Below are positions 51,869-64,000 of a stretch of DNA of 64,000 nucleotides, one piece after another. The notes below the pieces were generated by a model. The model saw only the letters and a program-made list of their open reading frames with translations, ran no database searches and was not told the origin of the DNA. The stretch is from Edaphobacter lichenicola. Lineage in GTDB: Bacteria > Acidobacteriota > Terriglobia > Terriglobales > Acidobacteriaceae. The stretch covers positions 4,278,001 to 4,342,000 of the forward strand of contig NZ_CP073696.1 in NCBI RefSeq assembly GCF_025264645.1. Reading direction: 5' to 3'. The translations under genes were made by a program, and so were the position numbers. Numbering within the stretch: the stretch's first letter is position 1; every line of letters starts with the position of its first letter.

Positions 51869-53491
51869 ATGCCGACTGACGTAGTTATGCCCCAGATGGG
51901 CGAATCCATCACCGAAGGCACCATCACAAAGTGGCTTAAGAAGCCGGGCGATGCCATTCAGCGCGACGAGCCACTCTTCGAGATCTCGACCGATAAGGTC
52001 GATGCAGAAATTCCTTCGCCCACCGCTGGCACGTTGAAGGAGATCAAGATCTCCGAAGGCACTACTGTTCAGATCAACACCGTTGTCTGCAGTATCGATG
52101 AGTCCGGTTCCGCATCACCCGCGACGCCTCCGGCAAAAGCCGAAACCGCCGCTGCCCCTGCAGCAGACTCCGCCACCCCGGCCGCAGCGAATACCGCTTC
52201 TGCTGCCCAAGGAAATCCTCTAGCAGCTGCTGGCCCGGGCACCGACGTGCTCATGCCGCAGATGGGCGAATCCATCACGGAAGGCACCATCACCAAGTGG
52301 CTCAAGAAGGTAGGCGACACCGTCCAGCGCGACGAACCTATCTTCGAAATCTCGACCGACAAGGTCGACGCGGAGATTCCATCCCCAATCGCCGGCGTTC
52401 TCTCCGAGATTAAGGTTCAGGAGGGCGCCACCGTCACGATCAACACGGTCGTCGCCGTCATTGGCGGAGCCGCAGGCAAATCCTCCGCTCCTACTGCTGC
52501 GACTCCCGTTGCTCCAGCACCTGCCGCTCCTGCACCTTCTCCAGCCGCTGCGACCTCGGCCGCTGCTGGCGAACGCGTCCGCTCTTCACCGCTCGTACGC
52601 AAGATCGCGAAGGACAACAACGTTGATCTTTCGCAGGTTCCAGGCACAGGGGCTTCTGGCCGCATCACCAAGACCGACATCGTCAGCCATCTTGAGCAAG
52701 GGCCAAAGCCTGTCACGGCTGTGTCAGCCGCCCCTGCAGCCTCACCTGCACCAGCCGCTGCCAAGCCAGCAGCTCCTCAGCCACAGCCGGGCGAGCTGGT
52801 TCCCATGACCAAGATGCGCTCCATCATTGCGCAGCGCATGGTCGAGTCCAAGCGCACCAGTCCACACGTCCACACCGTCTTCAAAGTGGATATGACGCGC
52901 ATCGTGAAGCTCCGCGAAAAAGAAAAGTCGAAGTACGAGCAGCGCAACGGCGTCAAACTCACCTACATGCCCTTCATCACGCGTGCCGCAATCGTCGCGT
53001 TGAGGAAGCATCCCGTCGTCAACGGATCCATCGAAGGCGAAGCCATCCGCTACAACAAGAACATCAACATCGGAATCGCCGTGGCACTCGACTGGGGCCT
53101 TATCGTCCCCGTCTTGAAGCAGACCGAAGAGAAGAACTTCCTCGGAATTGCACGTGGCATCGTCGATGTAGCAGACCGCGCCCGCAGCAAGAAGCTCGCC
53201 CCAGACGAGATCTCCGGTGGCACCTTCACCCTCACCAACTCCGGCATCTTCGGCGAGCAGTTCGGAACCCCCATCATCAACCAGCCGCAGAGCGCAATCC
53301 TTGGCATCGGCGGCCTCAACAAGGAAGCCGAAGTCATCACTGACAAGGATGGCAACGACTCCATCGCGATCCGCTCAATCCAGCGCTTTACCCTGGGCTT
53401 CGATCACCGCATCGTCGACGGCGCCGACGCCGGCAAATTCATGTCGGACTTCAAAGCGTATCTTGAGAACTGGTCCGAAGACATCGGTTAG
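51869..53491 (+). CDS. sucB: Dihydrolipoamide acyltransferase (E2, 2-oxoglutarate dehydrogenase type), two lipoyl domains
   Basis: The 540-residue core of a 2-oxoacid dehydrogenase complex has two lipoyl domains (about 1-78 and 125-205), each with the lipoylation site EISTDKVDAEIPSP. Ala/Pro-rich linkers connect to a peripheral-subunit-binding domain (RSSPLVRKIAKDNNVDLS, about 234) and the catalytic trimer-forming domain (about 310-540) with the HxxxDG motif in GFDHRIVDGADAG. The substrate could be succinyl, acetyl or branched-chain; no E1 gene is nearby, and sucB is the best guess. It follows a GGGGAGAAGAGAG ribosome-binding region and ends in a strong terminator. Confidence 0.88.
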   Translation: MPTDVVMPQMGESITEGTITKWLKKPGDAIQRDEPLFEISTDKVDAEIPSPTAGTLKEIKISEGTTVQINTVVCSIDESGSASPATPPAKAETAAAPAADSATPAAANTASAAQGNPLAAAGPGTDVLMPQMGESITEGTITKWLKKVGDTVQRDEPIFEISTDKVDAEIPSPIAGVLSEIKVQEGATVTINTVVAVIGGAAGKSSAPTAATPVAPAPAAPAPSPAAATSAAAGERVRSSPLVRKIAKDNNVDLSQVPGTGASGRITKTDIVSHLEQGPKPVTAVSAAPAASPAPAAAKPAAPQPQPGELVPMTKMRSIIAQRMVESKRTSPHVHTVFKVDMTRIVKLREKEKSKYEQRNGVKLTYMPFITRAAIVALRKHPVVNGSIEGEAIRYNKNINIGIAVALDWGLIVPVLKQTEEKNFLGIARGIVDVADRARSKKLAPDEISGGTFTLTNSGIFGEQFGTPIINQPQSAILGIGGLNKEAEVITDKDGNDSIAIRSIQRFTLGFDHRIVDGADAGKFMSDFKAYLENWSEDIG

Positions 53492-53554: not shown

Positions 53555-53863
53555 CTACGGCTCGATGAACTCAACCAGAAAATCATTATCAGATTGAATA
53601 TGATCCGCTGCGATCTCACATAGCTCCTGAGCGCTACAGTCCCAGTATTTTTTCTGCGAGAAATCCAGGCATTTTTCATCTAAGCATTTATATTCGCCAT
53701 TTGCTGATGAGCCGAAAACGTCGATCCCAAGCAGGCGCATGTCTCGATGCTTGAACGCGCTCACAACTTCAACAGCAACATCCGGCGGGAAGAGTAGCGC
53801 ATCTCTCCATTTGATAGCTCGATGCCGATAGTCTTCTAGAAAGCCGAAGTCTTCGTCCATCAC
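53555..53863 (-). CDS. Unknown small protein (102 aa) coupled to purK
   Basis: Not recognised. The ATG overlaps the purK stop by 4 bases (ATGA type), so it is translated from the purEK message. The protein is acidic, with ALLFPPDVAVEVVSAF and LLGIDVFGSSANGEYKC strands, four cysteines and a C-terminal acidic helix. It looks like a small immunity- or DUF-type protein, and codon use appears less GC-biased than purK. No role in purine synthesis is claimed. Confidence 0.6.
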   Translation of the reverse strand: MMDEDFGFLEDYRHRAIKWRDALLFPPDVAVEVVSAFKHRDMRLLGIDVFGSSANGEYKCLDEKCLDFSQKKYWDCSAQELCEIAADHIQSDNDFLVEFIEP

Positions 53864-55041
53864 AAAAGTTCCTTAGCGCGTTTGACTAGCGTAATTGCTT
53901 CTTCCGCACTGGTTCCCACCGCAGAAAGGTGGCCCATTTTACGGCCCTTACGCGGCTTGTGCTTCTCGTAAAGATGCAGTCTTACACCAGTAATTGCGAG
54001 AGCTGCATCGAATCGAGGTTCTCTCATAGAACCATCCGCCTCTATCCACAGATCCCCTAGTAAATTCACTATCGCCGCAGGCTGTACAACATCCACGCTT
54101 CCCAACGGCAGATCACACACCGCTCGCACCAATTGCTCAAACTGACTCGTCACACAGCCGCGTTCACTAGCGTGATAGCTATTGTGTGGACGCGGAGCAA
54201 GTTCATTTATCAGCAATTCACCCGATTTTGTGCAGAACATCTCGACCGCTAGAATTCCTTCCAGGCCAAACGTGTCCGCAATCTCCTCTGCCAGTTTGCG
54301 TGCCTCGCGCTCCGTAATGTCGGAGACTGGCGCAGGAATCACACTCCACTCCAGGATCTGGTTTTCATGATGGTTCAACGCTGGAGGATAAACCTTGACC
54401 TCGCCATTCGGAGCTCTCGCTACAAGTACCGAGATCTCTCTCTCCAGCTCGACCGCCTTTTCCACCAAGCCTGCACGCTCGCCAAGCGACTCCCAGGCGC
54501 CACGCACCTCATCTTCAATCGAAGCCCCAGCGACAAACCCCACCTTCCCCTGGCCTCGTCCGTCGTAGCCGCCCGTCGCGCTTTTGCAGAAGCATCTTCC
54601 CCCCAACGCAGTCACTGCGTCACGCAGTTCGTCGAGCGATCTCACCGCTCGATACTCACCCACAGGGAACCCATTTCGCCGAAGCCAATCCTTCTGTTCA
54701 ATCCGGTCTTGAATCACCGCCAACATCGCCCCACCCGGTCGCACCGGTGCGTAGCTTGCTGCGGCCTCCATGCTTGCAGGTGAAATCTGTTCAATCTCTA
54801 GAGTCACGACATCGCAGCCTCGCGCAAGGTTTGCAGCCTCGCGCGAATCATCCCAACCTGCCTCGATACATCCATCCACCACAAATCGCGCGGGGCAAGC
54901 CGGGTCCGGATCGAGCACCATACTCCGATACCCCATCCCCCGAGCCGCCATGGCCGTCATCCGGCCCAGTTGGCCCCCACCAAAGATCCCAATCGTCGCA
55001 CCTGGCAGAATTGGCTTCGCTATCGAAGAACCAGAGCTCAC
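53860..55041 (-). CDS. purK: N5-carboxyaminoimidazole ribonucleotide synthase
   Basis: The 393-residue ATP-grasp enzyme carboxylates aminoimidazole ribonucleotide on N5 using bicarbonate and ATP (de novo purine synthesis). N-terminal [23 protein letters not shown]-grasp segments [17 protein letters not shown] (about 148) and [24 protein letters not shown]-like region (about 275) are typical. It overlaps purE by 4 bp, the usual coupling of this pair. Confidence 0.95.
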
Positions 55042-55556
55042 GCGTCAACCTCATCTTCCCCGACCGTTTGCGCCAGAACCTCATCGCGCCGTACCGCGCG
55101 CCAGGCCACCAGCTTCTCCCGCAAATTCGCATCTGTCGTCGCCAGCATCCCGACGGCCAGCAGCCCGGCGTTCGTCGCGCCAGACGCACCAATCGCTAGT
55201 GTCCCCACGGGAATCCCCTTTGGCATCTGCACGATACTCAAAAGAGAATCCAATCCCTGCAGTGCCGTCGCGGGTATCGGCACACCCAACACCGGCACCA
55301 CCGTCTTCGCGGCAATCATTCCAGGCAGATGCGCAGCGCCACCCGCGCCGGCGATGATGATTCGCAGTCCACGTTCAACCGCAGCGTCTGCATAGTCAAA
55401 TAACAGATCCGGTGTCCGGTGAGCCGAAACCACTTTCACCTCATGCGTCACGCCAAACTCCTGAAGCACCTCAACGGCGCCTCGCATCACCGCATAATCA
55501 TTGCGGCTTCCCATCACAACTCCAACTAAAATGCTGCCCTGCGGCGCGGCGTCCAT
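55038..55556 (-). CDS. purE: N5-carboxyaminoimidazole ribonucleotide mutase
   Basis: The 172-residue class I PurE converts N5-CAIR to CAIR. Seen are [33 protein letters not shown] (catalytic His, about 46) and [16 protein letters not shown] (about 76). The ATG at 55556 is chosen; an ATG at 55583 lies upstream of a consensus -10 box and would not be transcribed from it. The gene follows, in the same orientation, the last gene of the phage-derived block. Confidence 0.93.
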
Positions 55557-55562
55557 GGCCCG

Positions 55563-55568
55563 ATTATA
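55563..55568 (-). promoter_or_regulatory. Consensus -10 box immediately before purE
   Basis: On the minus strand TATAAT is separated from the purE ATG (55556) by only 6 bases, so the transcript would start at or next to the start codon (leaderless). No recognisable -35 is visible. Confidence 0.4.
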
Positions 55569-55601
55569 CGGTTTCCCCTGCACGCCGCGCCCGCATCCGC
55601 A

Positions 55602-55862
55602 CTACGTGTGCTTCGCCCACAGACTCGCGTTCAGGCACATCACCACACCGTCAATCGTCATACTCAATCCCCGGGTAAATTGCTCCGAATCGGCAATATG
55701 CTTCATCGTCACAGCGTCCGCTATGTCAATCGCCGCCCCAACGATCTCCACCGCTGCCTTCTTCTTCTGCTCACCAGACTCAGCGCCAAACAGAGCCTCC
55801 GTTCCTTGAACCACTCCAGGAATTAACGCAATCGACCGCAAAAATACCTTCAGAAAATTCAT
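55602..55862 (-). CDS. Small unknown protein (86 aa) at the end of the phage-derived block
   Basis: The N-terminal MNFLKVFLRSIALIPGVVQG is a hydrophobic or amphipathic helix, followed by a Lys-rich turn (GEQKKKAAVEIVGAAIDIAD) and a second helix pair. It is encoded 19 bases after the XhlA-like gene on the same strand, so it belongs to the phage transcript. Size and position suggest a lysis or tail accessory protein; not recognised. Confidence 0.55.
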   Translation of the reverse strand: MNFLKVFLRSIALIPGVVQGTEALFGAESGEQKKKAAVEIVGAAIDIADAVTMKHIADSEQFTRGLSMTIDGVVMCLNASLWAKHT

Positions 55863-55881: not shown

Positions 55882-56097
55882 TTATCGACGAAAATAATCA
55901 ACGGCCAAATGAAACATCGCCAACAACGCCCCGCCAGCTGCAATCAGACCCTTAACGCGTTGCACGCTGCGTTCATGCTGCTCCACCCGATCCTCCAGTT
56001 GCGTCAATCTTCCCGGCTGGCCGATCCCCATCACCTGTTTCATCTGGCTCTTCAGCACACTCAAATCCGCTAATACCTGCCCTTCGAACTCTGTCAT
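55882..56097 (-). CDS. XhlA-like phage holin accessory protein
   Basis: The 71-residue protein has a coiled coil (residues 5-48: VLADLSVLKSQMKQVMG, LTQLEDRVEQHERSVQRVKG) followed by one C-terminal transmembrane helix (LIAAGGALLAMFHLAVDYF). This layout is that of hemolysin XhlA and related phage membrane proteins that act with a holin and endolysin. No holin or endolysin gene is next to it. It lies 18 bases after the tail-hub-like gene. Confidence 0.6.
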   Translation of the reverse strand: MTEFEGQVLADLSVLKSQMKQVMGIGQPGRLTQLEDRVEQHERSVQRVKGLIAAGGALLAMFHLAVDYFRR

Positions 56098-56115: not shown

Positions 56116-58434
56116 TTACTCACTCACGGGCAGATCTGTAAACACTGCACTTGAAAATCGCGAATAAAGAGGCGGTGTCGACCCGTCATACATTCGCACG
56201 TAGTAGTGTTCTATCTGTCCTTCGCGAGGAATCGAGAAGCTCCGTACGGGACTTCTCAGAACCAGGTCCTGATCAACCCCCGGACCAAAATCGCCATCCC
56301 GCCGCCTCACCTCAAAGCCGCCACCTGCAGGCGGAGCTGTTCCTGAATCCACCTGAAGCGCAGTCCCCGTCGCGCTCACCACTTGCAACTGCTGCAAGTT
56401 CGCTAACACCTTACCGGGAGCACTCAACGCCGTCTCTGGCAGCAAAGCATCAGCAGCAATTGCCTCGGACAACGTCACTCCCAACCCCTCGGCCCAATCG
56501 TTCGCAAATGCCATCTTGTATGTCAGGGCCTCCGGAGACCCCATCCCATCGACAATCTCCACGCTCCGCACAACCACGCTCATGGTCTGTCCAGCGCTCG
56601 TCACAGCCAGTACATCTCCTGGCCAGACGTCCGCCGGATTCACTGCGGCATACGTGCCCGCAACCGCAGCCGCGCGACTCGACGAAAAACTCAGCACTGC
56701 CGATGCGGCACTCTCGCAGTCCACGGAACTCCGTGCCTCTGGCTTCAGCACCTTCCCCAGCCACTGCGCGGTACCAGGCATCCCACCCGCGGCCTCCGCT
56801 GCTACACTCGCTGCATCTTCCAACCGAGCCACGGCTCTCTGCTGATTCCGATAGGTCACCGTTACAAGTTCGCCAGCCACCGGAACCCGTCCTGCAAAAA
56901 AAGTAACCTTACCTGCTGCAGATACGGTGCAGTCCACACCCTCTCCGTTGACACCAATCAAACGGGTCATCGTCACGCCACTCGGCAGCGTGCTAACCAC
57001 CCAGGCCGAGCCTGTCTGCGTTATCCTGCAGTAACCCATCGACCCAAACAGCTGTACGCTATTCACTGCCACAAAGCTGCATGTGGCCGGCGACGTCGTC
57101 ACACTCCCGTCGTAGAGCACTGTCGCTGGCGTATTCGAAGCCAGTCCCAAATCTTGCAGCTCAAACACCACGCTCATTGGGGCCGCCACCAGGCCGCCAC
57201 CGAAGGACTGCACAGCACCGTCGACCATCGCGTAGTAGCTCTGCAGCACGCGCTGCACCTCCACGCAATGCAGCCGAATCCGTAACGTGTAGGTATGCCC
57301 TTGCAAGATCGTGAAGACCGTTCCAACTTCTGCTCCCTTCACAAATGGGACTACCACGGTCGCTCCGCCACTCTGCCGCACGTTGTAGCCCGCGAAGCAG
57401 TTCGCGCTCTGCGTCGTTCCCGCGTACAGCCCGCACACAACGCCTGCGCTTGCCCCACCCAGCTGCAGACTGCCAGCCTCAATGACGAGTGTTCCTCCCA
57501 ACTCCAACTGGTCGATCGCCGTCAGCGTCGTCTGCCCGTCGAATCCATTGCCTCCAGTCATCGTCAGCCCGGCAGAGCTCAACCCAAGGTGTGCCGCCGA
57601 ATCGTTGACCTGCCAGATCTGTGTATCCAGCTCCGCCTCATTGAAGCTGTCCGTCAAAAACTGGGCAGAAGCGGCCGTCTTCTTCGGGCGAAACGGATCC
57701 TCTGACAGTTGAAACACCGTCGTCGTTCCATCGCCCGCAAACGTCTCTGTAACGTACGCCGTCGGCTCCATCTCTCCGCTCACCGTGACATCGTTGGCTA
57801 ACTCCTTCACCGCCGTCGTCTTCAATGCTGCTACCTGCAACGTCCCGTCTCCATCGCTCAACGCATGAGTCACTGTGCCTGCCGGCTGTAGCCCTACCAC
57901 GCCATCCAGCACGCGGTATGCGGCATACGTCGCACTCGCAACGCCACCCGCATTCTCAGACCAGCTGGTGGCCTGCGATGGTTCAAATACCCCGACCGTC
58001 AGACCATTCATCACACCGGCCGTCGTAAACAGCCCGGCATCCACGCGATTGGTCAAAGTCGTCAGCAACTGTCCCCCACTCTGTGCCAATCCAGCTCCGC
58101 TCAGCGGAACCGCCTGCTTATCCAGTAGCCACTCATCGCTGACAGCGCTGAATGCGTAGCGATACACAGCCCCCTTCAACCCAGTCCCCTCGTACACAGC
58201 CTCCGGATCCGTCGCAATGTAGCCGGTAAATAAGACCGTTCCATTCGCCGCTGTCACAACGACTCGGGCGCGCCGCACCGGCACAGAAACAGCAGCATCG
58301 CTCACATCCAACAAACCGCTGCATACCGACGGAGCATTCAACGTGCGAGCGATCTTCAATGGCCCATCGGCGCACAGCGCGGCGCTATAGTCCACTACCC
58401 CTGCACCATCCAGATTGTCGATCGTTATATTCAT
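56116..58434 (-). CDS. Phage tail-hub / receptor-interaction-like protein
   Basis: The 772-residue protein has an N-terminal region (about 1-130: AGVVDYSAALCADGPLKIAR, VVVTAANGTVLFTGYIATDP) resembling tail-hub or baseplate-hub proteins that start a tail tip. Residues about 260-420 form a jelly-roll/LamG-like insertion (DSFNEAELDTQIWQVNDSAA through GVVCGLYAGTT). The region 500-690 is beta-rich, and the last 95 residues look like a fibronectin-III-type module (PAGGGFEVRRRDGDFGP, YYVRMYDGSTPPLYSRFS). The function is inferred. It overlaps the portal stop by 4 bp, so portal and hub are translated together. Confidence 0.6.
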   Translation of the reverse strand: MNITIDNLDGAGVVDYSAALCADGPLKIARTLNAPSVCSGLLDVSDAAVSVPVRRARVVVTAANGTVLFTGYIATDPEAVYEGTGLKGAVYRYAFSAVSDEWLLDKQAVPLSGAGLAQSGGQLLTTLTNRVDAGLFTTAGVMNGLTVGVFEPSQATSWSENAGGVASATYAAYRVLDGVVGLQPAGTVTHALSDGDGTLQVAALKTTAVKELANDVTVSGEMEPTAYVTETFAGDGTTTVFQLSEDPFRPKKTAASAQFLTDSFNEAELDTQIWQVNDSAAHLGLSSAGLTMTGGNGFDGQTTLTAIDQLELGGTLVIEAGSLQLGGASAGVVCGLYAGTTQSANCFAGYNVRQSGGATVVVPFVKGAEVGTVFTILQGHTYTLRIRLHCVEVQRVLQSYYAMVDGAVQSFGGGLVAAPMSVVFELQDLGLASNTPATVLYDGSVTTSPATCSFVAVNSVQLFGSMGYCRITQTGSAWVVSTLPSGVTMTRLIGVNGEGVDCTVSAAGKVTFFAGRVPVAGELVTVTYRNQQRAVARLEDAASVAAEAAGGMPGTAQWLGKVLKPEARSSVDCESAASAVLSFSSSRAAAVAGTYAAVNPADVWPGDVLAVTSAGQTMSVVVRSVEIVDGMGSPEALTYKMAFANDWAEGLGVTLSEAIAADALLPETALSAPGKVLANLQQLQVVSATGTALQVDSGTAPPAGGGFEVRRRDGDFGPGVDQDLVLRSPVRSFSIPREGQIEHYYVRMYDGSTPPLYSRFSSAVFTDLPVSE

Positions 58435-59672
58435 TGCGTTACCGCCGCTTCAATCGGGCCTAGCCCCCGCATGGCCCTCACCTCGTCCACTGTCAGCACC
58501 CCGGCCTGCAGCAGCGTCGTCTGGATCTGCAACTCCTGCATCTCATCCCTGCTCTCCAGGTCGTTGAAGCAAAACTCGAACTCGCGCCAACCCAGCTTCT
58601 TCGCAAACAGATCTCGCGTAATGTGCTCTGCAATCAGCTTCGCCACAGGAACAATCGCGCTCTGAAACGCCTCATCGGCCATCTCGCCCGCAGTCGACTG
58701 GTTCACATCGCTCTCCAGTCCCAGCATCATAGGCGGCAGATCGAACGCATTCGCAATCATGCGAATCAGTGCCTCCTGCCACTGCAACCGCAGATCGGCA
58801 TCTGTACCACCCGCGAACGGAATAACCTCCGGCTTCTGCTCACAGCTCAAAAACGGAACGCGCCCCGTCCCCTCAATCTCATCCTGCCACCAGCGAATCA
58901 GCCGGTCATGTTCCTCGGGAGTAGCGTCGTTCAACCAGATCGCATACTGCGCCACCGAATTGCTGGCCAGCTTTCCCGCGTACCGGCTCGCACTCAAAAA
59001 CTGATTCACCGTCTCAAACGCAACCTCCAGCCGACCCAGACCGAACGGGGTATAAGAGCGTGGGTTCAGCCGCACATACATCAGTTCGTCATCCAGCAGA
59101 GGTACCAGCGCCTCCTTCCCCATTCGCCCCGTCGCCTGCGCATAACGAGGTTTGTTGGGATCTCCATCCCACTTTGCATCGATCTGGATCGTAGCTCCAT
59201 CCACCGCCCAAAGATGAAACGGCCGTTCAGGATCACCAGTTGCCTCCATCTCGACTGCGCCAAAACCACCCACAAGCAGATCCTCCAACACCTGCTCCCA
59301 AAGCACCCGAAAACTGTCCGACGCATTCGGCTCTTCAAGGCACTGCCGCAGCACTTGCGTCCGAGCCTCCGCATCCTCTACCGTCGCACCCGAGTAGCCC
59401 CGTCTCACCTTCACCTGCCAGTCCATACTCGCGATCTTGTCCTTCACCACATTGATCGCTCGACGCACCACTGGAGTCTCGGCAAACTTCCGCAGATTCG
59501 CCGCCGTAGGCTTCGGCAAAGCGTTCTGCCCTGGCCGCCCGGCAGGCCTGTAGGGGCTGAAGATCGCAGGCAGCATCGCTGTCTTCCGCTCTCCCATCGC
59601 TGCGTCCCCAGCCGCCCCATCAACCCCTGCCAAACGCTGCCAAACATCCCTCACTGCTGTTCGAACGCCCAT
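58431..59672 (-). CDS. Phage portal protein
   Basis: The 413-residue protein forms the dodecameric DNA channel of a tailed-phage head. Seen are VVRRAINVVKDKIASMDWQV, LLVGGFGAVEME, ELMYVRLNPRSYTPFGLGRLE and the C-terminal FDLPPMMLGLESDVNQSTAG-EMAD segment, all typical of HK97/SPP1-type portals. The ATG at 59672 is chosen because a terminator hairpin (59701-59732) occupies the 5' part of the longer frame to 59729. No protease, capsid or head-tail connector gene follows; the tail-hub-like gene starts within its stop. Confidence 0.85.
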   Translation of the reverse strand: MGVRTAVRDVWQRLAGVDGAAGDAAMGERKTAMLPAIFSPYRPAGRPGQNALPKPTAANLRKFAETPVVRRAINVVKDKIASMDWQVKVRRGYSGATVEDAEARTQVLRQCLEEPNASDSFRVLWEQVLEDLLVGGFGAVEMEATGDPERPFHLWAVDGATIQIDAKWDGDPNKPRYAQATGRMGKEALVPLLDDELMYVRLNPRSYTPFGLGRLEVAFETVNQFLSASRYAGKLASNSVAQYAIWLNDATPEEHDRLIRWWQDEIEGTGRVPFLSCEQKPEVIPFAGGTDADLRLQWQEALIRMIANAFDLPPMMLGLESDVNQSTAGEMADEAFQSAIVPVAKLIAEHITRDLFAKKLGWREFEFCFNDLESRDEMQELQIQTTLLQAGVLTVDEVRAMRGLGPIEAAVTQ

Positions 59673-59700
59673 GCTACCCCTCTCTCTCCGTATCTGGTGC

Positions 59701-59732
59701 AAAAGAAAAAGGCACAGCCCCTGGGCCATGCC
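59701..59732 (-). terminator. Rho-independent terminator after the HipA/DUF3037 pair
   Basis: On the minus strand GGCATGGCCC-AGG-GGCTGTGCC forms a stem with one small internal loop, followed by TTTTTCTTTT. It stands between the DUF3037 gene stop and the portal start. Confidence 0.75.
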
Positions 59733-59783
59733 TACTCTGAAATCAAAATCAGCTTTCTAAGCGGAAGCTATCGCCAAAAAATT

Positions 59784-59804
59784 GTCACCCTGAGCGAAGC
59801 GAAG
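59784..59804. repeat. Short dispersed-type motif between DUF3037 and portal genes
   Basis: CACCCTGAGCGAAGCGAAG is of a type often seen in intergenic regions of Acidobacteria and other GC-rich soil bacteria (from memory, not searched). Only one copy is in this window. It lies in the junction on one side of the HipA/DUF3037 cassette. Confidence 0.3.
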
Positions 59805-59870
59805 AATTCCCGCATTCGTCCGGAGTGACCTACTCCATACCATCGGCGAAACACGCTGAAGTCGCCGCTC

Positions 59871-60719
59871 TCAAACCCGCAACTCAACCCGCGCTGTCTC
59901 CGCCACCCGAGCAAGATCATTCAACGTCACCACCCGAATCTCCTGTCGCTCCATCGCCTCCACACCAAACCGATACCGCTCCATCGCCTCGTCTTCCGTA
60001 TCCGAAACCGCCCGCAACGGCTCAACAATCGCAGTCAACTCAAGCCGCGCCGCCTCCACCCTCTGCACGCCTTCCATCAACTGAGGTGCCGAATAAGCCA
60101 ACCCCTTCGCCGCCTCCACATCCCCCTCCAGCGACACCGCCTGAAACATCCGAATCACTCCATTGGGCCTATATCCACAATCAATCTTCATCGGATCACC
60201 CGCCCGTGTATACAACGAAGCCGCAATCCTCTTCCGCATCAGCCCCCACACTCCAGCCCTCTCAAACTCCGTTCGCATCGCCCCCGCGATCGCCGCCCGG
60301 CCCGTTCTCTTCCGCTCCGTCTTTACCTTCAGCGGTTCCACATACATCTTCATCAACTGCTCAATCTCTGCTGGCAAACTCTCCGCCAGGCACGCCCGCA
60401 CCTCGGTCATCTGCACCGAGTTCGCCAGCGTATCCTCAAGAATCTCCATCACCGGCTTAATCCCTTGATCCGCTCCTGGAGCGTCCTTGCCCACAGTGCG
60501 CAGCCGAGCGCCAATCTCTGCCTCCAGCGCCTCCAGCAAAACGATATCCGCGTCCGCATCCATGCACTTCACTCGAGCCCAATCTCGTGTAAAACGCACC
60601 ACGGCACTATCGGCCCGGCCTGCTTCTCGCAGCAGCACTCCGATATTTGCAAACTCGCCCTTCACCACATCCGGCACATACCGAATCAGGAAGAACTCGC
60701 ATTGGACACGTTCAGCCAA
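59871..60719 (-). CDS. DUF3037 protein paired with HipA-like kinase
   Basis: The 282-residue protein starts at TTG, 8 bases after GGAG; an in-frame TGA just upstream rules out a longer start. Residues 5-45 (EFFLIRYVPDVVKGEFANIG and VVRFTRDWARVKC) match the DUF3037 signature. The middle and C-terminal regions are helical. DUF3037 proteins are commonly encoded next to HipA-like kinases, as here, 101 bp downstream of the kinase; the reason is unknown. A role as antitoxin, substrate or sensor for the kinase is inference. Confidence 0.75.
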   Translation of the reverse strand: MAERVQCEFFLIRYVPDVVKGEFANIGVLLREAGRADSAVVRFTRDWARVKCMDADADIVLLEALEAEIGARLRTVGKDAPGADQGIKPVMEILEDTLANSVQMTEVRACLAESLPAEIEQLMKMYVEPLKVKTERKRTGRAAIAGAMRTEFERAGVWGLMRKRIAASLYTRAGDPMKIDCGYRPNGVIRMFQAVSLEGDVEAAKGLAYSAPQLMEGVQRVEAARLELTAIVEPLRAVSDTEDEAMERYRFGVEAMERQEIRVVTLNDLARVAETARVELRV

Positions 60720-60820
60720 CCATCCATCTCCAATTCAAACCCTGAGACTTTCAGGCTCGAACTCAAATAAAGTCGTTCGATACCACCACCTCAAAGTCTG
60801 CAAACCAACAGCTACCACTC

Positions 60821-61687
60821 TCACATTACAAATTTTCCCACTCCACTTACATCTGCAAACTGCTTTGGCACAACAATTCGGTTTCCCGACGCCCACATCG
60901 GGAATGGCTCGCGATTCGAATCCCGAAACTCCCCGATCAACTCCCTCACCCGCGACCGACGCCTCAACATCTGCTCCATCAACCGCTCGATCACGGCTGT
61001 ATCCCCGCCATACCACTCCGGCGGCACCGCCTCCGCGATCTCCCACAGTGTCCCCGCCTCCATCGCTTCAACGCGGCCCAGCCAGGGTTCAAAGCTCTCC
61101 CATCCCGTCACCCGTGCGTACACCTGATTCCTCTGATACACACCCCGCAGCGGAGAGTCCGGGAACGTCCACTCCCCCGCGTTGAAGCAAAAGCCCTGGT
61201 CGATAAAGGTAGCCCGATACTTCCGCTCTCTCGGCTTCCTCTCGAACACCGCCTGCCGCCCATTGCAGTTACCCGCCCACTTATCGATACACAGCATCCC
61301 CGCAAACTCCGCCAGGTTCCTTACCTCATCCAACTGCTGCTCCGGGAGATAGTCCACCACCTGCCCCGGCATCAACCCACCCACAAACTGCGATCCGAAC
61401 TGCAGCCCTGCCGTATACCTCTGCCTCTGTCCTTGCGGCAGCTCCACAAACATATCCAGCGTATTCGACACCAGCCATTCGGTAACCTCAACAACATCAC
61501 TCACCGGTACCGTCAAACCCACCGCTGCTGCCAGCCGTGTCGCAATCAACTCATTCGCAAGAACCCGCAGATCCTGAGGATTATTTTGAAACTTCACCAC
61601 CCAAAGCTTTCCATCCGCCCCCAGCATCAGCTGACTCTGCGCCCCGCCCCGCATCCTTCTGATCGCCTGCACTGCCAATACCGCCAA
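60821..61687 (-). CDS. HipA-like serine/threonine kinase
   Basis: The 288-residue HipA-family kinase is the compact type with no separate HipB antitoxin gene. It has a Gly-rich loop IRRMRGGAQSQLM (about 9-21), an ATP-site lysine at 32 in WVVKFQNN, the catalytic segment CIDKWAGNCNGRQ (Asp135, Asn140) and a metal-binding Asp163 in FIDQGF. All key residues are present, so it is probably active. HipA phosphorylates targets such as GltX, causing growth arrest. TTG at 61687 follows AGGGG; TTG 61678 or GTG 61672 are alternatives. The upstream frame to 61882 overlaps the terminase and a terminator and is rejected. Confidence 0.75.
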   Translation of the reverse strand: MAVLAVQAIRRMRGGAQSQLMLGADGKLWVVKFQNNPQDLRVLANELIATRLAAAVGLTVPVSDVVEVTEWLVSNTLDMFVELPQGQRQRYTAGLQFGSQFVGGLMPGQVVDYLPEQQLDEVRNLAEFAGMLCIDKWAGNCNGRQAVFERKPRERKYRATFIDQGFCFNAGEWTFPDSPLRGVYQRNQVYARVTGWESFEPWLGRVEAMEAGTLWEIAEAVPPEWYGGDTAVIERLMEQMLRRRSRVRELIGEFRDSNREPFPMWASGNRIVVPKQFADVSGVGKFVM

Positions 61688-61780
61688 GCCGAACACCCCT
61701 CGCAACAGAATAACCCGTGTCCCACCGCCCAGACCCGAGCAACGCGAGGACCTCAGCCGTCTGCATAACCCGGACAAGGT

Positions 61781-61799
61781 AAAAAGGCGTGAAACGCCC
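61781..61799 (-). terminator. Terminator after the terminase gene
   Basis: On the minus strand GGCGT-TTC-ACGCC is a 5-bp stem followed by TTTTT, 40 bases after the terminase stop. The stem is short, so termination may be partial. Confidence 0.55.
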
Positions 61800-61838: not shown

Positions 61839-63341
61839 TCATCGCTTCTTGCCCACCAACTCAGCCCGCACCGCCTGCGCAATCGCCATAGCCATCAAAC
61901 AATCATCATGCGCCCCATTCACCGCGCCAGTCCTACCCCCTGCCATAGCAACAAACGTCCGACACTCCCCCAGCAGGCGCCGGCTAAAAAACATCCCCGG
62001 CGATTCCACCAACAGCGCCCCCATCCGGCTCACCATCCCAGGCTTCGACCCCGCCGTCGTCAGCCATCCTGCAACGCCTGCCTGCCCATACACTCGCGCA
62101 TACCGCTCCACACTATCCAGATAAGCAAGCACGCCAGCTCCATGATTATTCCTCTCCACAGCAATCGTCGCCCCGCCATACTCTCTCGCCAGCTCCGCCG
62201 AAACCCTCGCCAGCTCCAGCGTCCCCAACCTCTGCTGCAACTCCGCACACTGCATCCCGGATCCCATCTCAATCACCTGCACCGCAGCAAAATCACCATC
62301 GGCCCCACCGCCGGCGGTATCCACGGCAACCACATATTCCTTCCCGGCAATCGGCGGCAACCAAACCTGCAAAGCGCCTCCGCGCCGCGTCTCCACAGGC
62401 CCTCCCAACTCAGCAAGCCGAGCCTCTACGGTCGAAACCTCAAAGCAACACTCACCCGTAGCCTTGAAGCAGCTCTCCGCATCCTCTGCAAACTCCTGCG
62501 ACCGCAGCCCCCGATAGCTCATCTCCAGCCCCCGCCGAAACCCAATCTGCTCTGCAGTCAAACCATGCGCCGACACGAGCCGCCGCTCATCCTCCCTCAG
62601 ATCGCCCACTGGCGCCCCAACATAAGCCTCTTCCATCCACCATGGAAAAAAATGCCGCACCACATCGTCACTCAGACAGTCTGACCCGCCAACCCCCAGC
62701 TCAACGCCGCGCCCCCACTCCTCATAGAAACAGCCGTAAGCTCCATTCGGCGTCGACTCCATCACCATCTCGCCACCTGGCACCAGCGCCGCCCGCAACC
62801 CGGCAAGCGCCGCCCCTGCATCTCCCGGCCATCGGCTCACCTCGCTGCAGTGCAGATACTGCACCGTCAACCCTCGCCCCGCGCTCTCATCCGCAGCACT
62901 CACGACACGAAACTCGCTATCCAACTCCGGAAAACACATCTGCCCCGCATTCGCTCGACTTCGCCGCAGCGGCCCCTCCCGAAGCTCAACCGGCAGACAC
63001 TCCCAGAACCGCTGCACCATCCGAAAGATCCCCTCTGCAGCCTCTCTCGTCTGTGCCACCTGCACCGTCATCACACCACGCGCCGTAATCGTCTTCAGAA
63101 AAAATCGCCCGGCCACCCAAGTCGTAATCCCCATCTGCCGAGCCTTCAGCACAATGTTCTGACGCCCGCGCCTCCGTTCAAACTCCCTCTGCACCGCATT
63201 CGCCCGCAGCGGCCTCTCCACGCCCTCACGATCCCGAACCCTCAACAAACCCTCAGCCACATGCCGCAAAGCTGCTGGCTGCAATTCCATATACTTCCCC
63301 AGCATCAGCAGCTCCTCGACATCCATTGGAGCCTTACCCAT
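61839..63341 (-). CDS. Phage terminase large subunit
   Basis: The 500-residue DNA-packaging motor has an N-terminal ATPase with the terminase-type Walker A LKARQMGITTWVAGRFF (about 65-81), Walker B-like YLHCSEVSRW (Glu167) and MVMESTPNGAYGCFYEEW (motif III, about 195). The C-terminal RNase H-like nuclease has YVVAVDTAGGGADGDFAAVQ (first Asp, about 350) and a late acidic pair in GAHDDCLMAMAIA. All catalytic positions look intact. The ATG at 63341 follows GGGGGA. No small terminase gene is adjacent. Confidence 0.9.
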   Translation of the reverse strand: MGKAPMDVEELLMLGKYMELQPAALRHVAEGLLRVRDREGVERPLRANAVQREFERRRGRQNIVLKARQMGITTWVAGRFFLKTITARGVMTVQVAQTREAAEGIFRMVQRFWECLPVELREGPLRRSRANAGQMCFPELDSEFRVVSAADESAGRGLTVQYLHCSEVSRWPGDAGAALAGLRAALVPGGEMVMESTPNGAYGCFYEEWGRGVELGVGGSDCLSDDVVRHFFPWWMEEAYVGAPVGDLREDERRLVSAHGLTAEQIGFRRGLEMSYRGLRSQEFAEDAESCFKATGECCFEVSTVEARLAELGGPVETRRGGALQVWLPPIAGKEYVVAVDTAGGGADGDFAAVQVIEMGSGMQCAELQQRLGTLELARVSAELAREYGGATIAVERNNHGAGVLAYLDSVERYARVYGQAGVAGWLTTAGSKPGMVSRMGALLVESPGMFFSRRLLGECRTFVAMAGGRTGAVNGAHDDCLMAMAIAQAVRAELVGKKR

Positions 63342-63415: not shown

Positions 63416-64000
63416 CTACATCTCCCAGTGACAACCCGATACCGTCTTTGGATTCGGCACATCGCGGAACGTCAATGAGCCATTCGCAGCAACCGGCACC
63501 ACCGTCCCCACCGAAAGCCCGTTGATCAGCTGCGACGAACTTCCCGCAACCACACCCACCGTAAAGGCAGACTGCAGATTCGCCACCGTATACACCGCCC
63601 CACTCTGCCCCGTGCAATCCGGCAGCGTCAACGTCTGGTTCCCTGTCGGAGCCGCCGTGACGTAGCCATCGCCGGCCGTCATGGCATAGGTCGCCGCGGT
63701 CACCACATGCGGGTTCGCTGCCGTAGAGCCGAAGTAGTAGTTCAGTGCATTACTGGCCTCCACAGCAAGCAACAGCTGCCCGGCCGCCGTCGGATGCGTA
63801 TGATCCCCTTGAAAGTAGGTCGCGTTCGCATTGGCTCCATCTGCACCGAGCAGCGGATTCGCAGCAAAGTCAATCACGCCATCCGCGCCAACCCTCTGCG
63901 CATTCTGCAGCATCAGCGCATCGTAAGAATCCTTCGAAGCGTCCAGACCGGTGCGCGAGATCATTGTTCCCACAAATGCCCTGCAGCCCGCCTTCTTCAC
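63416..64000 (-). CDS. SGNH-hydrolase-like phage tail protein, C-terminal part (cut by window end)
   Basis: Only the last 194 residues or so are visible; the frame is open at base 64000. YFQGDHTHPTAAGQLLLA (about 63-80) is block V of SGNH/GDSL hydrolases with the catalytic Asp-His pair. Nucleophile and oxyanion blocks would lie outside the window. A beta-rich C-terminal domain follows (from about 95, Thr/Gly/Ala-rich, TPxGNQTLTLPDC). Such esterases decorate tail fibres and deacetylate host polysaccharide. A tail-fibre role is inferred from the terminase gene next to it. Confidence 0.6.
   Translation of the reverse strand: MKKAGCRAFVGTMISRTGLDASKDSYDALMLQNAQRVGADGVIDFAANPLLGADGANANATYFQGDHTHPTAAGQLLLAVEASNALNYYFGSTAANPHVVTAATYAMTAGDGYVTAAPTGNQTLTLPDCTGQSGAVYTVANLQSAFTVGVVAGSSSQLINGLSVGTVVPVAANGSLTFRDVPNPKTVSGCHWEM

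Follow-up and report, generated by a model that had tools for sequence, protein, structure and literature searches.

A HipA-like kinase and its DUF3037 partner in a phage-derived gene cluster beside odhB in Edaphobacter and its relatives

Why should a gene for a HipA-like kinase lie between the genes for a phage terminase and a phage portal protein? In the 64-kb window that we analysed (bases 4278001-4342000 of a 5.66-Mb genome), the minus strand encodes, in order, the terminase large subunit (TerL), a HipA-like kinase, a DUF3037 protein and the portal protein. The initial annotation, which was made from the letters of the window, described this gene order and strand along with two hairpins, and all of these are present in the sequence. 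It interpreted the two middle genes as cargo that had been inserted into a phage structural module. We lean instead, with modest confidence, towards a kinase/antitoxin system of the PDC-M66 type that forms part of a phage-derived cluster, ancient and vertically inherited, beside the host gene odhB. The features of the window that bear on the question are as follows.

51869..53491 (+): odhB, host flank and anchor of the conserved site
53860..55583 (-): purK-purE, host flank (PF00731)
55602..55862 (-): p86, final element gene before the host genes (phrog_36560)
55882..56097 (-): p71, small membrane/coiled-coil element protein, XhlA/holin-like by eye
56116..58434 (-): p772, conserved element protein, probably tail-related (from synteny among elements)
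58431..59672 (-): portal protein (PF04860, E 2e-55)
59710..59733 (-): portal-leader hairpin, conserved and covarying, with a U-tract at 59700-59709; terminator or attenuator
59871..60719 (-): DUF3037 protein, 282 aa, putative antitoxin or regulator (PF11236, E 1e-22; PDC-M66B); DUF3037 at residues 11-127 and, in the model, a PD-(D/E)XK-like fold at about 133-282
60821..61687 (-): HipA-like (HipA_2) kinase, 288 aa, with a TTG start at 61687 (PF20613, E 7e-9, above the Pfam cut-off; PDC-M66A)
61594-61592 (-): codon for Lys32 of the kinase; the other catalytic residues are Asp135, Asn140 and Asp163
61785..61799 (-): terminator-like hairpin 3' of TerL, not conserved among relatives
61839..63341 (-): TerL (phrog_2, E 5e-23); the ORF is open to 63617
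63416..64000 (-): 3' part of the gene for a 1544-aa SGNH/fibre-like element protein, which runs past the window

A tRNA scan of the 64-kb window found none, and an Rfam search of the window found no matches either.

A phage-derived cluster at a conserved site

The four genes are part of a cluster of phage origin, about 20 kb long, that reaches from the neighbourhood of purE as far as a divergent Cro/CI-like gene (genome position about 4,354,000). In the reading direction of the element, the cluster has first a sigma-like factor, protease-like and scaffold-like proteins and the probable major capsid protein (assigned without a family match); continues with a head-tail adaptor, tail-like proteins, the 1544-aa SGNH/fibre-like protein and TerL; and ends with HipA, DUF3037, portal, p772, p71 and p86. 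In the region that the flanks enclose in the window's genome, we recognised no integrase or replication genes, and several element proteins have no family match; nor did we recognise a tape-measure gene in the cluster. The sigma-70 region 4 protein (L003:2653-3318 (-)) and the divergent Cro/CI-like regulator (L003:3825-4541 (+)) are both encoded by the element, and other genera have them too.

The cargo interpretation fits poorly with comparisons among relatives, as the architecture is old and fixed. The genes for portal, DUF3037, HipA and TerL are adjacent and in the same order in all 39 elements of the genus (38 fetched loci and the window), and the order TerL-HipA-DUF3037-portal recurs in 62 of the 80 best named genome loci, which come from Edaphobacter, Granulicella, Terriglobus, Bryocella, Acidipila and relatives. 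Five of these 80 loci lack both TerL and portal, and all five adjoin odhB or purE; the remainder are mostly cut by contig ends. On this synteny we rejected a recent insertion of the pair. A portal homologue was found in 50 of 61 genomes of the same genus, nearly always as a single full-length gene. (Internal stops in some portals are probably due to a few codons before the start that were included in the query.)

In other genera of the family, the order TerL-HipA-DUF3037-portal-protease-capsid is the standard phage order (L104-L120), whereas in the present genus the block from protease to tail lies upstream of TerL (L002 and L003), so it is in the present genus that the capsid block has moved. 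In all genera for which the flank was seen, the element is flanked by odhB or odhB-purKE, with G250 as the exception. Only family f1 and one genome of family f7 (G432) have the capsid protein. In G432 the cluster is complete, the pair occupies its usual position and odhB lies at the end. We tentatively favour an element that was already present in the common ancestor of f1 and f7 over its transfer between the two families, although G432 is a single intact f7 element. The "viral" contigs from IMG/VR that contain the pair turned out to be pieces of this element. Strain KBS 146 carries the full element (L091 and L272) and was reported without a detected prophage (PMC5900883); prophage finders seem to miss the element.

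The genes of the cluster are under purifying selection. Within the genus, the median dN/dS was 0.174 for HipA, 0.188 for DUF3037, 0.183 for the portal protein, 0.252 for TerL, 0.098 for the capsid protein, 0.394 for the fibre-like protein and 0.142 for the host's purK (estimated by NG86 at high dS, so these are relative values only). The SGNH/fibre-like protein (L002:11416-16050 (-), dN/dS 0.39) is the fastest-evolving gene of the element. Patristic distances for the element and the pair were correlated with those for rpoB (r = 0.5-0.85; 0 of 499 permutations gave as high a value). Several well-supported splits in the trees conflict with rpoB, and therefore some elements have been exchanged between lineages.

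The fixed site, the vertical descent and the purifying selection suggest that the cluster may be GTA-like. Like GTAs such as RcGTA, it is a compact cluster of head and packaging genes at a fixed host site, with vertical descent and purifying selection; unlike them, it decays often and has a kinase pair built in.

The kinase and the DUF3037 protein

The kinase matches PDC-M66A from PADLOC (E 4.7e-8), as do all 25 of its class-wide homologues, and the adjacent DUF3037 protein matches PDC-M66B (E 1.6e-12). By sequence, then, the pair is the PADLOC candidate system PDC-M66, which is related to HipAD/DS-6 and to the pair in Retron-Sda1. The initial annotation had placed the four catalytic residues (Lys32, Asp135, Asn140 and Asp163) exactly, if the TTG at 61687 is taken as the first codon, and none of the four varies among the 25 class-wide homologues, which extend down to 33% identity. 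Both proteins have families in PHROGs, and tblastn with both against 50,697 phage records gave no match at E 1e-3. Many genomes also have a second DUF3037 gene, which is mostly shorter and matches PF11236 far better (L035-L064); in G046, a weak HipA-like match adjoins this second gene.

The predicted structure of the kinase (pLDDT 83.7) has a PI4K/CtkA/HipA-type kinase fold, with matches to CtkA (Z 13.3), PI4K II (Z 13.1), HipT (Z 11.9) and HipA (Z 11.7), and in the structure comparison it aligns to the C-terminal part of HipA only. When we searched the sequences of solved structures, the kinase gave weak HipA matches only (E 0.59) and the DUF3037 protein gave nothing useful. In the model of the DUF3037 protein (pLDDT 89.8, pTM 0.58), residues about 133-282 match PspGI (Z 9.1, rmsd 4.5 over 132 residues) and other proteins with the PD-(D/E)XK fold, namely BstEII (8.8), Can2 (8.5) and XPF (7.3); Z of 7-9 is near background for models like this one, so the match is a lead. 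In an alignment of DUF3037 proteins, Asp180 is conserved, and no conserved (D/E)xK was found. It is plausible from the model that the C-terminal domain is a pseudo-nuclease or a DNA-binding domain.

Relatives of both proteins have been studied genetically. In the Retron-Sda1 operon, deleting HipA abolishes defence against Bas51 and deleting DUF3037 is toxic; the RT and the ncRNA are dispensable, and the kinase and its partner act without the retron parts (PMC12548924). In DS-6/HipAD (E. coli; DefensePredictor), defence is lost when a kinase residue is mutated; the partner, which contains DUF3037 and DUF1829, is predicted to bind both the kinase and DNA (PMC13092281).

The pair described here resembles HipAD/DS-6 in having a HipA-like kinase with intact catalytic residues, a DUF3037 partner and no HipB. 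It differs in being a fixed, class-wide, element-embedded gene pair and perhaps in the second half of the partner: DS-6B carries DUF1829, while here the model of this region has a PD-(D/E)XK-like fold. (A search of 36 DUF3037 members with the DUF1829 model from Pfam gave no match at E <= 10, although the C-terminal domain with the PD-(D/E)XK-like fold could still correspond to DUF1829.) With PDC-M66 and the Retron-Sda1 pair, our pair shares the matches of both proteins to PDC-M66A and PDC-M66B, but no retron is present at this locus, and the host and the genomic context differ. The C-terminus of the Sda1 partner resembles a retron type III DNA-binding protein. Finally, the kinases of the type II toxin-antitoxin systems HipBA and HipBST have the same class of fold, but here no HipB-type HTH antitoxin adjoins the kinase and the partner is DUF3037. 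An XRE/HipB-like partner was sought beside the kinase and was not found; the neighbours of the kinase are TerL and the DUF3037 protein, and the cluster's own Cro/CI gene is ~14 kb away.

The suggestion in the initial annotation that DUF3037 takes the place of HipB in a toxin/antitoxin-like defence pair is supported by homology, as the relatives are anti-phage and the loss of DUF3037 is toxic in Sda1. By analogy with these relatives, the kinase of the present locus may be a toxin that is restrained by DUF3037. The DUF3037 protein would keep the kinase inactive until phage infection disturbed this restraint; the freed kinase would then phosphorylate a target in the host (or the phage), growth would arrest, and the population would be protected.

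The two hairpins

The pair had also been described as a self-contained transcription unit with two terminators of its own. Our comparisons do not support this: the upstream hairpin is not conserved and the downstream hairpin is part of the portal leader. The upstream hairpin (61799-61785, GGGCGT-TTC-ACGCCT-TTTT) is present in the window's genome, and a terminator-like hairpin of any kind is found at its position in 10 of 39 related elements, as compared to 4.5 expected from shuffling. The downstream hairpin (59733-59710 plus TTTTTCTTTT) is found in 33 of the 39 elements, as compared to 2.5 expected. In this hairpin, 96.3% of cells are paired and five pairs are changed on both sides. Its covariation was 0.321, whereas shuffling gave 0.188 and slid versions gave no more than 0.154; the structure had been read from the same sequences as were scored. 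A tight sequence pattern for this hairpin occurs at just one place per genome in five of the six genomes that we searched.

The downstream hairpin lies about 40 nt ahead of the portal start codon (59672). It also precedes the portal gene in the pairless element L244 and, by eye, in L248, while such a terminator after DUF3037 is absent from 23 of 25 loci with a stand-alone pair. Its nearness to the portal start, its presence in L244 and its absence after most stand-alone pairs imply that it belongs to the portal leader. Because there is little room for a promoter after the hairpin, attenuation or antitermination of portal expression is a possibility.

These results leave us giving almost no weight to a recently acquired cargo cassette, insulated by its own flanking terminators within a prophage. 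The window's genome does have both hairpins, and TerL-portal junctions that lack the pair do exist: in three elements from IMG/VR, TerL is followed directly by portal. The idea of insertion between terminase and portal is to that extent reasonable. But these pairless elements are nested among pair-bearing elements and so look like losses, at least two in number. Together with the long-standing architecture at one host site and the behaviour of the two hairpins, the comparative data largely refute the cassette.

The pair with and without phage genes

We found the kinase in 214 of 248 near-complete genomes of the class, mostly as one copy each, and it usually adjoins a DUF3037 gene. In the other families that were first examined, the pair occurs without element genes. 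Among 93 genomes of the family, the kinase is present in all 70 with an intact capsid gene and is kept, often beside odhB, in 13 of the 23 without one, and none of the 10 genomes that lack the kinase has an intact capsid gene (these counts are not phylogenetically independent). In Granulicella mallensis, Terriglobus albidus and others, a solitary pair adjoins odhB or purE, and in eight loci from families f7 and f91 the pair lies directly beside odhB-lipB-lpd, with no phage genes. In G422 (f90; L363), a relative of the cluster's Cro/CI-like repressor lies next to the kinase in divergent orientation; no phage genes separate the two. Conversely, G069 and G490 have the cluster without the pair and a copy of the pair elsewhere in the genome. 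In G025, G053, G328 and others, the element and the pair were lost together, which shows that the pair can be dispensed with.

As a rule, kinase toxins and defence systems are mobile and patchily distributed, and near-universal presence across a class suits a housekeeping role at least as well as it suits defence. The kinase and a DUF3037 regulator could form a core host signalling pair, rather than a poison and its antidote, which the phage cluster encloses by chance in some families. That the pair is near-universal and mostly single-copy, that the kinase tree for the class mostly follows the boundaries of its taxonomic families, and that the eight loci from other families have it beside odhB all fit this account. 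We nevertheless consider it unlikely, as the published relatives are anti-phage and, in Sda1, toxic without DUF3037 (PMC12548924, PMC13092281), and as about one in ten genomes of the family tolerates losing the pair completely.

Another role would be within the element: the kinase might control the phage-derived cluster, for instance by arresting the host while particles are made in a GTA-like programme. The pair is fixed between the packaging ATPase and the portal in every element of the genus, and the cluster has its own Cro/CI-like repressor and sigma-like factor. However, the pair persists without capsid genes and across other families, and at least two pairless lineages of the element retain TerL and portal, which makes this role quite improbable. 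An addiction module that keeps the element in the chromosome seems very unlikely. The toxin/antitoxin-like pair is in the middle of the element and partial deletions often spare it, as one might expect of such a module, but clean losses of element and pair exist, and the pair persists where no element is left to stabilise.

We return to the PDC-M66-type system, which is probably a class-wide kinase/antitoxin pair for abortive defence, kept within a domesticated phage cluster and also outside it. Its near-universal presence in the class, and its frequent survival where the capsid genes are gone, would make the host its main beneficiary now, and not the phage element.

The pair itself is of a known kind; its setting is unusual and old. 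A kinase pair that is near-universal in one class of bacteria is, in one family, locked inside a vertically inherited, phage-derived cluster. More tentatively, and with more doubt than belief, we suggest that a GTA-like odhB cluster was long kept with the kinase/DUF3037 pair at its core and, through repeated decay, became the source of the class-wide immunity pair, with the terminator hairpin in the leader gating the portal gene. If this is true, then domesticated phages would seed core bacterial immunity as clusters decay and leave the pair behind. The genomes run from the full cluster through truncated clusters and the pair alone to nothing, a natural series in which one could test whether domesticated phages supply lasting immunity genes to their hosts in this way, and the same series bears on whether the pair serves the host, the element or both.
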